DNA of 64,000 nucleotides, taken from NCBI GenBank assembly GCA_013151235.1, contig JAADIO010000033.1:1-64000 (forward strand), in the 5' to 3' direction. Each line of letters starts with the position of its first letter. Position 1 is the first letter of the stretch. The DNA is from Deltaproteobacteria bacterium. Its GTDB lineage: Bacteria; CG2-30-53-67. The position numbers and the translations under genes were made by a program. A model generated the notes under the pieces. It was given only the letters and a program-made list of their open reading frames with translations, searched no databases and was not told the DNA's origin. This document shows, one piece after another, positions 5,373 to 35,495 of this stretch.

Positions 5373-5440
5373 TAAAGGGCGATATTCCCAGGTTACGGCT
5401 TGGTGTTTGTTTTGTTCTCATAGTCTGTTGATCACATTTT

Positions 5441-5525
5441 TACTCCGAGCCTTCGGGTCTAAGTCCGTAGCGGATAGGATCTTCGGCCGACAGGGTAAGG
5501 CGGGAAACGGCCTTACCTCCCGTGT
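5441..5525 (+). promoter_or_regulatory. candidate Moco (molybdenum cofactor) riboswitch
   Basis: The leader of moaA contains CTCCGAGCC at 5443-5451 followed by TTCGGGTC, a small hairpin TCCG-TAG-CGGA (5464-5474), and a perfect 8-bp stem GGTAAGGC (5494-5501) with GCCTTACC (5510-5517) around a GGGAAACG loop, then TCCCG just before the ribosome binding site. The CTCCGAGCC, purine-rich apical loop and CCTCCCG elements, and the position in front of moaA, resemble the Moco RNA motif. The match is from memory of the consensus; a covariance-model search would settle it. Confidence 0.6.
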
Positions 5526-5542
5526 TTGGAAAGGAGTTGGAA

Positions 5543-6568
5543 ATGGGGATCTCCTCCCGAAGACCGCATGTCTTTACACGATTTGTTTCCTGTTTGACCG
5601 ATAATTATGGCCGCCAAATCAACTATCTACGGCTGGCGGTGACCGATCGTTGTAACCTCCGATGCCGCTACTGCATGCCGGATGAGGGAATCCCTTTTAT
5701 TCCCCACGACCAAATCCTCCGGTTTGAAGAGATGGAGCGCCTGGTCCGCATCTTTGCCTCGATGGGGGTCCGCAAGGTCCGTCTGACTGGCGGAGAACCT
5801 TTTGTCCGTAAGGGAGTTGTCCCCTTCATCGAGCGTCTCGGAAAAGTCCCCGGCATCGAAGAGATCCATGTCACGACAAACGGTGTCGCAGCCTCAGACC
5901 ATCTTGCGAAACTGAAAGCGGTGGGCCTTTCCGGGATTAACCTGAGTCTGGATACCCTCGACCGCAAACGATACCATCGGATTTGCCGCCGGGATCTTTT
6001 CGCTTCCGTTCTGGAAACCCTTGAAGAGGCACTGAAGGTCGGGCTCTCCCTGAAAATTAACACGGTGATGCTCGATGCATCCGGTGAAGAAGACCTGCTT
6101 GCCCTGGCGGAGCTTGCTCGAACCCGCCCGGTCTCTATCCGGTTCATCGAAAGGATGCCCTTTTCCGGACAGGGGAGGGGATGTCCGCCGGTCTGGTCGG
6201 CGGGAAGGATGGTCCGCCTGTTACAGCAGAAATATTCCGGACTTTCTCTCCGCCTGACCCCGAGGTCCTCTACGTCCCTGCTCTACCGTCTGCCTGGATT
6301 TCTCGGCACCGTCGGGGTAATCGGAAGTTATTCCCGAAGTTTCTGCGCCCACTGTAACAAGGTCAGGATCACCCCCCGGGGGATCTTGAAAAACTGTCTC
6401 TACGACGATGGCACTCTGGACGTCCGGGCACTTCTCCGTACCGGGGTTGACGACCGGGAACTGGTCCGGACACTCCGAGCAGCAATCGAGAGGAAGCCCG
6501 AACACGGCCATGCCGTTGAAGGTTCTCTTGAAGAATGTACGGCCTCCATGGCCACAATCGGCGGATAA
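5543..6568 (+). CDS. moaA: GTP 3',8-cyclase MoaA
   Basis: This radical SAM enzyme carries out the first step of molybdopterin synthesis, turning GTP into 3',8-cyclo-dihydro-GTP in the cytoplasm. The 341 residues have the N-terminal CxxxCxxC cluster site (Cys37, Cys41, Cys44, in DRCNLRCRYC), the LTGGEPF SAM-binding stretch, the second C-terminal cluster site (FCAHCNK...ILKNC) and the family's C-terminal Gly-Gly (ATIGG). ATG 5543 was chosen over an in-frame ATG at 5522 because AAGGAG lies 6 bases before it. The permease gene follows after 19 bp and moeA after that, so this is a cofactor operon; moaC, moaD, moaE and moeB are not in the window. Confidence 0.95.
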   Translation: MGISSRRPHVFTRFVSCLTDNYGRQINYLRLAVTDRCNLRCRYCMPDEGIPFIPHDQILRFEEMERLVRIFASMGVRKVRLTGGEPFVRKGVVPFIERLGKVPGIEEIHVTTNGVAASDHLAKLKAVGLSGINLSLDTLDRKRYHRICRRDLFASVLETLEEALKVGLSLKINTVMLDASGEEDLLALAELARTRPVSIRFIERMPFSGQGRGCPPVWSAGRMVRLLQQKYSGLSLRLTPRSSTSLLYRLPGFLGTVGVIGSYSRSFCAHCNKVRITPRGILKNCLYDDGTLDVRALLRTGVDDRELVRTLRAAIERKPEHGHAVEGSLEECTASMATIGG

Positions 6569-27983: not shown

Positions 27984-28113
27984 TAACGGCACAGTAAAAA
28001 GCTCCGGATGCAAGGCGCGAAGGTTTTGAGGAGTGAGGCGTACTTTTTTGTACGTCGAAATGAGCTCAAAACCTGATAAACGAAGTAGACGGAGCTTTTT
28101 TATGTGCCGTTTA
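27984..28113. repeat. 130-bp intergenic palindromic element
   Basis: Outer arms TAACGGCACAGTAAAAAGC (from 27984) and the complement of GCTTTTTTATGTGCCGTTTA (to 28113) pair; inside, AGGTTTTGAG (28021-28030) pairs with CTCAAAACCT (28064-28073), and GCGTAC with GTACGTC around a T6 tip. The element overlaps the last codon of the LpoA-like gene. I recognise this type of long imperfect palindrome as dispersed in several deltaproteobacterial genomes. Confidence 0.8.
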
Positions 28114-30051
28114 GTTGATCTGTTCGAGAGACCCTTTATGTACCTGAATCAGGAAGAGTTCTTTCTCCATTTCTCCATTGGGTAAGACTCGTGTCAGGCC
28201 GGAAATGCCGGGGTAATTCCGGAAGGACTCCAGGCCCTGACGGATGTCATCACGGGTACGCCCGCCCCGAAACAGTGCCTGTAGAATCATTTCCGCTGCA
28301 TCATAGGCCTGGGCGGTAAAAAGAGTCGGTTCCTCTCCATAGGCATGGCGGTATGCCTGCACAAATTCCGCAATATCCGTATGGTTGCTTCCTGCAAAGA
28401 AACCGTCGGTAAATACCGCTCCTTCGACAAAACGTTCTCCCCGGTGGATCAGTTCCGGTGAATCCCAGTTATGACTTCCTAATAATTGGACATGCTCGAT
28501 ATTATAAAAGGCAAGCTGCGGTGCGATCAACCCCACATCATCCGCATACCCCGGCATATAAAGAGCATCAAAACTCGGGTAATAATTTTTATGCCACTCT
28601 TCCATGGGGTATTCCGTCAGGTCGATCATGTCGGAATACCGGGAGAGGATCCCCGCAATGTCGGCATCGACGATCTTCCGGATCTCCGGTCCGAAGTCGA
28701 CAGCACCTCTCGGGTAGGAAATCCGGCAGAAGACTTCTCCCCCCAGATTGTTCACTTCCTCTTCAAACAGCTTCGCAAGTTCCCTGCCGTAATTGTCGTC
28801 CGGATAAAGAACTGCGAAAGAATGGAGATCCCGCTGTGCCACGGCAAAGCGGGCGATTGTCCGGGCCTGTGCTTCATTGGTCATGGCGTTTCGGAAGACC
28901 TCTTTTCCCAGATCCCCAATCCCTTCCGCCGTGGCCGTCGGGGTAATCATCGGCAGGCCGTTCTTGTCCGCTACCGTCGAGGCCTCGACCACGGACCGGC
29001 TCGTCACCGGCCCGATTACGGAAACGACATTCGGATCCTTTGCGAGTGAAGTCATCTCGGAAGCCGCCCGCCGGGGATCACCTTTTGAATCCCGGACGGC
29101 CAGCGAAACCTTTTCCTCCCCAAAAAGGGTATTGAAATTGTCCAGGGAAAGCCGAACCCCCTGCAGCACCTGACGGCCGACCCCTTTCAATGGCCCGGAT
29201 TGCGGGACAATGCAGCCAATGCGCAGGTTCCGGATCGATTCAAGATTTCCTTCCTGCACCACAAAACGATCCGCTTCATCCCGCAAGGGGTGCCCCGGAA
29301 AACGTTCGATAAAATTCTTGAAGATCCTTGATGCCCGGAAGTAATTCCCTTTTTTCCAAGCCCGCTTTCCCATGACATACAACGCAACACCACCCGGGAA
29401 TTCTCCGGGTGCTTCCCGGCGCATCTGCCGGAGCTGGTCATCCGTCAGCGATCGGCCCATGGCATCCGCCATCTCGTCATAAATCGTCCGTCCTGTCGGA
29501 CCTGTCCCGACCAGAAAGACTGCCTTCTTAAACTGCGACAGGGCCAGCTCCGGATCATCCCGATGCAGAAAGATCTCCCCCCGCAGCAGATATCCCCGTG
29601 CCGACAGTTCCCGGTCCTTTGCCGTACGGAGGAGGGAGCGTAATAATGCCAACGCTTCCTCATCCCGATTCGACTCCACGGCGATTTTTGCCGTCAGGAG
29701 TTTGGCCTGCCCCGCCTCGGAGGCCCCGGGGGTGGACTCCATCAGGGCCTGAAGAATACGACGAGCCTTGTCCGGTTCGTGGAGAAAATAATAGGAACGT
29801 CCGAAATTTAATGCCGCACCGGCTGGAAGTGCTTGTCCCGGATGCCGGGTAAGATAGGATTGATAAAGATGGACGACCTTCCGGTAGTGCCCCTGCTGAA
29901 AGGACGCATCCGCCCGGGCCAGTCCCTCTTCCCGGACACGATGCGTCTGCACCGGCATACATGCCGCCAGACAGAAGAACAGAAAGAAAAGGGTCCCTAC
30001 CCCTGTCCGCGTGAACTTCTCTTTTCCGGAAAGCTCGAGGGTCGTCGTCAC
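28111..30051 (-). CDS. LpoA-like lipoprotein with TPR and periplasmic-binding-protein domains
   Basis: The 646 residues begin with a lipoprotein signal (hydrophobic FFLFFCLAAC, cysteine as the lipid anchor), followed by TPR-type helices (about 40-270) and a type I periplasmic binding protein fold (IGCIVPQSGPLKGVGRQVLQ, VIGPVTSRSVVEA, FAVLYPDDNYGRELAKLF). This is the arrangement of LpoA, which activates penicillin-binding protein 1A, and of amino-acid binding proteins. It follows the fumarase beta gene by 34 bp. Whether it regulates cell-wall synthesis or binds a ligand is not decided by sequence. Confidence 0.8.
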   Translation of the reverse strand: MTTTLELSGKEKFTRTGVGTLFFLFFCLAACMPVQTHRVREEGLARADASFQQGHYRKVVHLYQSYLTRHPGQALPAGAALNFGRSYYFLHEPDKARRILQALMESTPGASEAGQAKLLTAKIAVESNRDEEALALLRSLLRTAKDRELSARGYLLRGEIFLHRDDPELALSQFKKAVFLVGTGPTGRTIYDEMADAMGRSLTDDQLRQMRREAPGEFPGGVALYVMGKRAWKKGNYFRASRIFKNFIERFPGHPLRDEADRFVVQEGNLESIRNLRIGCIVPQSGPLKGVGRQVLQGVRLSLDNFNTLFGEEKVSLAVRDSKGDPRRAASEMTSLAKDPNVVSVIGPVTSRSVVEASTVADKNGLPMITPTATAEGIGDLGKEVFRNAMTNEAQARTIARFAVAQRDLHSFAVLYPDDNYGRELAKLFEEEVNNLGGEVFCRISYPRGAVDFGPEIRKIVDADIAGILSRYSDMIDLTEYPMEEWHKNYYPSFDALYMPGYADDVGLIAPQLAFYNIEHVQLLGSHNWDSPELIHRGERFVEGAVFTDGFFAGSNHTDIAEFVQAYRHAYGEEPTLFTAQAYDAAEMILQALFRGGRTRDDIRQGLESFRNYPGISGLTRVLPNGEMEKELFLIQVHKGSLEQIN

Positions 30052-30085: not shown

Positions 30086-30661
30086 TCACACCGTTTTGTG
30101 TTTCTTCTGTCTGCGGTAGCGCTTCCAGCCCGTTTTGAAAAGATCCCCGCCGTAAATATCATTGGCGACAATCGCAGGAAAATCTTCAAAGACAATCTGC
30201 CGGATTGCTTCCGGACCCAATTCCGGGTAGGCAATCACACGACTCTCTTTGATCTTTTCCGAAAGAAGAGCGGCCGCACCTCCGACGGCCGTGAAATAGA
30301 CAGCCCGGAACTCGACCATACTTTGTATCACTTCCCGGGAACGTTGACCTTTTCCGACCATTCCCTTCAATCCGAGTCGGAGGAGCTCCGGTGTGTAAGG
30401 ATCCATACGGCCGGCGGTTGTGGGACCGGCGGAACCGATGACCCGGCCGGGGGGTTCCGGTGCAGGTCCGACATAGTAGATCACCTGGCCGGCCGGGTCA
30501 AAGGGGAGTTCACCCCCCTCCCGGAGAGTTTTGAGTATACATTGATGGGCGGCATCCCGGGCGGTATAGGCGACGCCATTCAGAAGAACCAGGTCCCCGA
30601 TGTTCAGCTTGGCAATTTCTTCATCCTTGAGCGGCGTACTCAAGCGAATCGGTCCGGACAT
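30086..30661 (-). CDS. fumarate hydratase class I, beta subunit
   Basis: The 191 residues match the C-terminal domain of class I (iron-sulfur) fumarase: GDLVLLNGVAYTARDAAH, YYVGPAPEPPGRVIGSAGPTT, MVGKGQRS, and the end FPAIVANDIYG. The start ATG 30661 sits behind GAGGAGG; a longer frame would overlap the alpha-subunit gene. Together with the alpha subunit it hydrates fumarate to malate; two-gene versions are typical of anaerobes and archaea, single-chain versions of enterobacteria. Confidence 0.93.
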   Translation of the reverse strand: MSGPIRLSTPLKDEEIAKLNIGDLVLLNGVAYTARDAAHQCILKTLREGGELPFDPAGQVIYYVGPAPEPPGRVIGSAGPTTAGRMDPYTPELLRLGLKGMVGKGQRSREVIQSMVEFRAVYFTAVGGAAALLSEKIKESRVIAYPELGPEAIRQIVFEDFPAIVANDIYGGDLFKTGWKRYRRQKKHKTV

Positions 30662-30674
30662 GGCAATAGCCTCC

Positions 30675-33678
<3,004 letters not shown>

Positions 33679-33695
33679 CAGACAAACACTCCTTT

Positions 33696-35495
33696 CTATT
33701 CGCTCTTGATTAAATCTTCAAATCGAATGTCAACTCCCAGTATGCCGACAATCTCCTCCTTCCGAAAGATCGGAGTAGAAACGGTAATCGCGAGAACATT
33801 GGTGGTCCTCGATGTATAGAGATCGGTCACATGGGTTGACCCGTCCTTCATCGGGCCGATATACCAGGGGCGCTCGGAAAAATCCTCCTTGACGGAGAAG
33901 ATCTTGTACTTGGCTTTGTCACCGACCTGTGTGATGTTTTTTGTAACCTTGATTCCTTCCGTATCCGTCACATAACAGAACTGGATAAAAGGATTGTCGT
34001 GAACAAGCTTCTGAAGGACTTTTTCGACCTTCAGATGGTTCATGGTTCTCATGGCCGGAGATGCGGCGGCCTCCTCCACGATCTCTTGGGCGATATCCAG
34101 GGCTCTGGCCTTCAACTTGTCCAGATCGGAGATAAAATATTCGGGCAGATGTTTCCGGGCTTGGCGAAGGATCTCTTCATTCGACATGGCGGTGATCCGT
34201 CCTGCGGCATACTGTTCGGCGACCCATTTCTGGATACGGACCAATCCCGGATGGGTCTTCGGAATTTTCCGGCCGCCCGTCTGGCGCACATGGGTATTGA
34301 CCCAGTAACTGAGCCCCGCCACACCGGATTTGTCGGTAATGGTTACCCCGAGAGGACGGTTGAGAATCGATTTCGTATCAAAGATGTTATAGATCTCCTC
34401 GTTTTTTAACACGCCGTCGGCATGGATTCCGGCCTTGGTGGTATTGAACTCCTCGCCGACAAAGGGGTAGTTCGGCGGGATCGGATAGTTCAGCTCGTCC
34501 TGAAAATAGTCGGCAATCTCCGTAATTACTGTCGCATCGATCCCATCCCGCTCCCCTTTGAGGCCCATGTATTCAATAATCAAACCTTCGATCGGGGGAT
34601 TGCCGGTCCGCTCCCCGAAACCGAGCAGGGTACCGTTTGCAGCGGCACAGCCGTAGAGCCAGGCCGTCGAAGCGTTGGCAAGAACCTTATGAAAATCGTT
34701 ATGCCCATGCCACTCCAGCAGACGGGAAGGAACACCGCCGTAATGGATCAGTCCGTAGATCATCTCCCCTACCCCCCGGGGCAGGGCCGCCCCCGGATAA
34801 GGAACGCCGTATCCCATGGTGTCGCAGGCCCGGACCTTGATCGGAATCCCGCTCTCCTCGGAGAGACGCATCAGTTCATTCACGAAGGGGATGACAAATC
34901 CGTAAAAATCGGCACGGGTAACATCTTCCAGATGACAGCGGGGAATGATCCCGGCATCAAGCGAGGCCCGGACCACATCCAGATAGCCATCCAGGGCTTG
35001 TTTTCGAGATTTTTTTAACTTCAGAAAGATATGGTAGTCGGAACAGGAAGTGAGGATCCCCGTCTCCTTGAGGCCCATTTCCTTTACCAGTTGAAAGTCT
35101 TCTTTCTTCGCTCGAATCCAACCGGTTACCTCCGGAAACTCATAGCCCCGGTCCAGGCACATCCGAACGGCCTCTTTGTCCTTGTCGCTGTAAAGGAAAA
35201 ATTCGGATTGACGGATAATCCCTTTGGGCCCCCCGAGTTTGTGGAGCATATCAAAGATCCGGACGATCTGTTCCGAAGTGTAGGGAGGTCTTGCCTGCTG
35301 GCCATCCCGAAACGTCGTATCGGTAATCCAGAAATCCTCCGGCAGAGAAAGAGGGACCAGACGATTTGAAAAAGAGATCTTTGGAACCTCGCTGTAAGGA
35401 AACTGATCCCGTAACAGATTTGGCTGGTTGATATCCTTCAGCTCATAATTGTAATCCCGGGCCACCGCCCGATCATTGTTAATAGACTTTTTCAT
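33696..35495 (-). CDS. HMGL-like TIM-barrel synthase, probable (Re)-citrate synthase, with C-terminal Cache-like domain
   Basis: Residues about 50-480 form a homocitrate/2-isopropylmalate synthase-type enzyme: [17 protein letters not shown] carries the catalytic RDGxQ motif, [17 protein letters not shown] the metal-binding HxH, and a LeuA-like hinge with [12 protein letters not shown] follows. Such proteins act as Re-citrate synthase in Clostridium kluyveri, Syntrophus and other anaerobes. Leading an operon with icd, mdh and fumarase, and with no canonical gltA in the window, it most likely makes citrate from oxaloacetate and acetyl-CoA. From residue about 486 to 599 there is a second domain ([55 protein letters not shown]) with the hallmark of Cache/PDC sensor folds, normally extracytoplasmic. 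No signal or membrane helix is present. Homocitrate synthase is the alternative. Confidence 0.85.

Follow-up and report, generated by a model that had tools for sequence, protein, structure and literature searches.

A Re-citrate-synthase-type enzyme carrying a C-terminal Cache domain with a putative amino-acid-binding pocket

One gene in the window (the whole 64,000-nucleotide stretch of DNA analysed here) encodes a protein in which a Re-citrate-synthase-type catalytic part is followed by a genuine Cache/PDC domain at about residues 486-599. On balance, we favour the reading that this is a Re-citrate synthase with its own cytoplasmic Cache domain, acting as an allosteric amino-acid-binding module in place of the regulatory domain of LeuA. 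The combination of the fusion with a preserved amino-acid-like pocket suggests direct control of the enzyme by one of the cell's metabolites. The enzyme family is known, and it is the regulatory architecture that is newly noticed: a literature search, with subscription journals mostly outside its coverage, found no citrate or isopropylmalate synthase described as bearing a Cache domain, nor any account of how Re-citrate synthase is regulated. Many sulfate reducers, syntrophs and subsurface bacteria probably use Re-citrate synthase as their TCA entry enzyme, with Desulfovibrio vulgaris and Syntrophus aciditrophicus among its reported users (PMC12016533). How it is regulated becomes a testable question through a sensor domain that is conserved and has a readable pocket. 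If the favoured reading is true, this Cache domain would be unusual in governing a metabolic enzyme inside the cell. An earlier note on this DNA had proposed an enzyme of the Re-citrate-synthase family with a Cache effector domain replacing that of LeuA; tests of sequence, fold, phylogeny and gene context uphold the proposal, as far as such predictions reach.

The gene and its neighbours are arranged as follows:

33696..35495, minus strand: Re-citrate-synthase-type enzyme with C-terminal Cache domain, 599 aa, ATG start
34131..35441, minus strand: catalytic part, residues ~19-455, DRE-TIM/HMGL barrel plus post-barrel helices, with RDGQQ at 63-67 and WHGHND at 262-267
34041..34130, minus strand: helical linker, residues 456-485, whose long helix 457-477 runs into the Cache domain
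33699..34040, minus strand: Cache/PDC domain, residues 486-599, putative pocket R542, W544, Y545, Y560, S562, T571, D589
32437..33678, minus strand: icd, NADP isocitrate dehydrogenase, score above the NCBIfam cut-off
31514..32440, minus strand: mdh, malate dehydrogenase
30675..31517, minus strand: fumarase alpha subunit (class I, Fe-S)
30086..30763, minus strand: fumarase beta subunit (fumB), real start probably internal to the ORF

The reading frame, its strand and its length are exactly as first described, and the operon with icd, mdh and fumarase is real and tight. The synthase gene heads it with a gap of 17 nt to icd, the icd/mdh and mdh/fumA pairs overlap by 4 nt each, and fumB comes last. 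The same next gene, icd, is also seen at the relative L088. The protein was said to lack a membrane helix, which agrees with its highest 19-residue Kyte-Doolittle mean of 1.02; none of the fused homologues exceeds 1.8 on this measure. An artefact of two genes or of read-through is ruled out by 68 homologues fused in single open frames, and the sequences of unfused homologues stop near residue 455. Two other features of the window were observed. Downstream of the fumarase genes, at 28111-30051 on the minus strand, lies a lipoprotein-like gene with N-terminal TPR repeats, a C-terminal Peripla_BP_6 domain and a marginal LppC (LpoA-like) match, and a molybdenum/tungsten cofactor riboswitch (RF01055, 75.7 bits) is located at 5431-5552 on the plus strand.

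The catalytic part had been described as a homocitrate/isopropylmalate-type synthase with RDGxQ and HGH motifs. This is borne out by an HMGL-like domain (PF00682, residues 57-329, E 1.2e-26) and by the RDGQQ and WHGHND motifs, both invariant across 52 homologues; they contain the RDG (R63, D64, G65) and HxH (H263, G264, H265) metal-binding motifs of the family. In Foldseek searches, the barrel matches homocitrate and isopropylmalate synthases. Among the closest unfused homologues are anammox proteins (Kuenenia/Brocadia) with 64-65% identity; as the anammox Re-citrate synthase is 55-58% identical to the Clostridium kluyveri enzyme (PMC8862662), this similarity points to a Re-citrate synthase. 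In the tree, LeuA and CimA lie outside the group that the synthase forms with the anammox and Bacillota copies, although the outgroup branches are very long. The gene neighbours in other phyla include aconitase (12 loci), icd (11) and mdh (4), and in Planctomycetota sucC (8) and sucD (6). It could be argued that the protein, regulatory domain included, is instead a synthase making homocitrate, isopropylmalate or citramalate, given that its annotation is generically HMGL and that its best NCBIfam score is to nifV-type homocitrate synthase. However, that score is 131 against a cut-off of 463, the isopropylmalate, homocitrate and citramalate models all score far under their cut-offs, and the genome has LeuA and CimA as separate genes, both over cut-off. 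Together with the citrate-pathway neighbours and the near-exclusion with Si-citrate synthase described below, this makes such an identity very improbable. The earlier note had also considered a genome with an ordinary citrate synthase in which the products of this enzyme are limited to homocitrate or isopropylmalate. An ordinary citrate synthase is present, but nothing points to such a limit, separate LeuA and CimA being present too. Assignment to the Re-citrate-synthase type is thus supported, at the level of sequence comparison, by identity, gene neighbours and near-exclusion with Si-citrate synthase.

The claim that no canonical gltA is seen stands for the window and fails for the genome. 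A stand-alone Si-type citrate synthase (PF00285, 449 bits, 385 aa) was found on contig 50 (locus L001:1444-2601, minus strand). A family search of the genome found no PrpD, and the contig 50 enzyme is for this reason probably a true Si-citrate synthase and not a part of the methylcitrate cycle; its reading as a methylcitrate synthase is less likely on the same ground. Replacement of Si-citrate synthase, which is a usual correlate of the Re type and no strict requirement, is therefore not seen in this genome. Since both types are present, the argument from a missing gltA has to be dropped here, while it holds in most genomes bearing the fusion. Among 247 genomes of the Desulfovibrio phylum, 99 have the homologue only, 108 PF00285 only, 20 both and 20 neither. 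In other words, PF00285 is absent from 99 of the 119 genomes with the homologue and present in 108 of the 128 without it, a near-exclusion with an odds ratio of 0.037 when kinship between the genomes is ignored. In a sample of relatives, 35 of 50 are without PF00285. The fused gene without PF00285 also occurs in two genomes on complete chromosomes (L021, L054) and in the isolates Desulfocarbo indianensis and Fundidesulfovibrio agrisoli. Where both types coexist, as in this genome and the 20 above, they may divide labour.

The C-terminal domain is confirmed by profile and by fold. Residues 486-599 had been read as Cache/PDC, and PF22673 (MCP-like_PDC_1) matches at 491-596 with E 1.9e-16 and 60.9 bits (cut-off 27); dCache_1 matches at 474-595 with E 1.2e-9 and 38.5 bits, under its cut-off of 45. 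All 68 Cache parts match both families, and no LeuA dimer domain is found among the Pfam matches of the synthase. Structure prediction, which had been suggested as a check, returned a Cache fold. The AlphaFold model built on an alignment of 52 full-length homologues has a mean pLDDT of 89.9, and the C-terminal 148 residues predicted alone have a pLDDT of 90.1 and a pTM of 0.86. Foldseek matches of this part include KinD, Tlp3 with bound amino acids, PctA, Mlp24, DcuS and the cytosolic YkuI (E down to 7.5e-8, probability 1.00). A profile of the 68 Cache parts searched against the PDB retrieved largely the same proteins: Tlp3 (1e-11), PctA (2.5e-7), PctB, PctC, Mlp24, KinD and YkuI. Cache domains are described as extracellular relatives of PAS domains (PMC8694187). 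The family search found only one PF22673 protein in the genome, the fused synthase itself, so the domain was not borrowed from the organism's own present chemoreceptor set. As a single Cache module without a membrane segment, it differs from the double, extracytoplasmic domains of the dCache_1AA group; it may work like an amino-acid sensor of that group, yet it is no member of it.

An indication of the ligand comes from the predicted pocket. The amino-acid motif of the receptor PctA includes R126, W128, Y129, Y144 and D173 (PMC10104139; PMC11245519), where the carboxylate of the ligand is contacted by R126, and amine receptors have D173 too (PMC10104139). In the fused synthase, R542, W544, Y545, Y560 and D589 align with these residues at identical spacing, and the HMMER alignment pairs the same residues. 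Five of six motif positions are present; the sixth (PctA Y121) is not kept, being E537 here and variable. The five positions have an identity of 0.94, compared with 0.57 for the remaining domain; when five positions are drawn at random 100,000 times, only 5 draws do as well. Among the 52 homologues, just six residues of the Cache part are invariant (G514, W544, S562, L568, T571, D589); position 545, equivalent to PctA Y129, is mostly F, and R542 is replaced by K, H or S in five of them. A debatable issue is the nature of the ligand. With enzyme and regulatory role unchanged, the domain might, like KinD or DcuS, bind a dicarboxylic or 2-oxo acid such as pyruvate, 2-oxoglutarate, malate or oxaloacetate. 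KinD, whose crystal structure contains pyruvate (4jgp), ranks first among the fold matches and second among the sequence matches; the arginine of the KinD R131A mutant structures aligns with R542, its YSSRITG resembles the YTSxxTG stretch of the fused-synthase family, and the position of PctA D146 is an invariant serine here, as in KinD. DcuS is among the fold matches, and a signal at the level of substrate or product would be fitting for such an enzyme. However, while the arginine is kept in KinD, the tryptophan and aspartate of the pocket are not: it has F for the invariant W544 and A for the invariant D589. As the amino-acid receptors have both, an amino acid is a better guess than a keto acid, and we regard the organic-acid ligand as unlikely, though deserving serious weight. 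A further explanation is that sensing has been lost and the domain is kept for dimerisation or stability only. Cache/PDC domains are able to take part in dimerisation (PMC8694187), and whole clades of close relatives work without the domain; but W544 and D589 stay invariant while the domain drifts (median pairwise identity 0.44, compared with 0.62 for the catalytic part), and a purely structural role appears improbable.

It is proposed that the Cache domain acts as an amino-acid-binding regulator as follows. The catalytic part would form citrate from acetyl-CoA and oxaloacetate, as expected for an enzyme of the C. kluyveri type. By analogy with amino-acid chemoreceptors, R542 and W544 would hold the carboxylate of the ligand, most likely an alpha-amino acid, and D589 and Y560 its amine. 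Glutamate-family amino acids would be the first candidates, because citrate synthesis in many such anaerobes feeds 2-oxoglutarate and glutamate; aspartate, next to oxaloacetate, would be the second. In D. vulgaris, citrate synthesis serves 2-oxoglutarate/glutamate production (PMC12016533), and the role of the domain is probably end-product control of this synthesis. Ligand binding would move helix 457-477 against the barrel dimer, and this shift would turn citrate synthesis down (or, less likely, up). In LeuA the regulatory role falls to a leucine-binding domain and in Sulfolobus homocitrate synthase to a RAM domain, and by analogy the Cache domain would do the same job. Given its C-terminal place, the long helix and the guarded pocket, it is most simply seen as another regulatory domain of the superfamily.

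A survey of homologues, also suggested earlier as a check, showed the fusion to be widespread. In the Desulfovibrio phylum, the 119 matching genomes comprise 113 with the full fusion, three with unfused copies and three with fragments. Every one of the 26 complete Nitrospirota copies has the fusion, and in a Syntrophaceae-like family it is present in 26 of 27 matches. The fusion is carried by five of eight genomes of the window's own small phylum and is found in MAGs of several other phyla; it is missing from all 21 Bacillota copies and from all 12 Planctomycetota copies of near-full length. Unfused relatives, about 43% identical and annotated as pyruvate carboxyltransferase, were also noted on the Deinococcus plasmids NZ_CP031163.1 and NZ_CP097152.1. 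When the tree is built from just the catalytic part, three changes are enough to account for its 70 fused and 24 unfused sequences. One old fusion with few losses is favoured, with gain and loss not firmly separable since the root is insecure (outgroup branches of 9-10 changes per column). At 32 loci, mostly of Desulfobacterota (e.g., L006, L009, L012, L013, L016, L030), aspS lies directly upstream of the fused gene on the same strand, and in 19 of these hisS is upstream as well. The conserved aspS neighbourhood is a weak hint at aspartate as ligand, because the synteny of housekeeping genes says little about it. Quite possibly, though we stop just short of calling it probable, Re-citrate synthase acquired its allosteric domain in a single early event, when a Cache sensor of the periplasmic type was drawn into the cytoplasm, and TCA carbon entry in a large share of anaerobic bacteria is set by amino-acid binding to a chemoreceptor-like pocket.

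Among known systems, the fused enzyme can be compared with both synthases and sensors. Its catalytic family is that of the Re-citrate synthases of C. kluyveri and Syntrophus; the former type reportedly goes back to Li et al. 2007 and the S. aciditrophicus enzyme to Kim et al. 2013. Bacillota-type copies are without the Cache domain, unlike the fused enzyme. The Syntrophus enzyme may well carry it, judging by the predominance of fused copies in the Syntrophaceae-like family; it is said to be a protein of about 72 kDa, which would fit a fused copy of ~630-645 residues. If so, the domain is already present in a characterised enzyme. LeuA (2-isopropylmalate synthase) likewise joins a DRE-TIM barrel to a regulatory domain at the same C-terminal position, but that domain is the LeuA dimer domain instead of a Cache fold, and the substrate is another. 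Sulfolobus homocitrate synthase (6ktq), of the same superfamily, has likewise gained an unrelated C-terminal amino-acid-binding domain; this one has a RAM (ACT-like) fold and belongs to the lysine pathway. On the sensor side, PctA, Tlp3 (dCache_1AA) and KinD have the Cache fold, and the R-x-W-Y/F ... Y ... D spacing of the pocket is identical in PctA. Their domains are, however, periplasmic and sit on membrane receptors, whereas that of the fused enzyme is a single cytoplasmic module. YkuI, matched by both sequence and fold, is also soluble and cytoplasmic and has its Cache-like domain at the C-terminus, but it is an EAL c-di-GMP protein and no metabolic enzyme.
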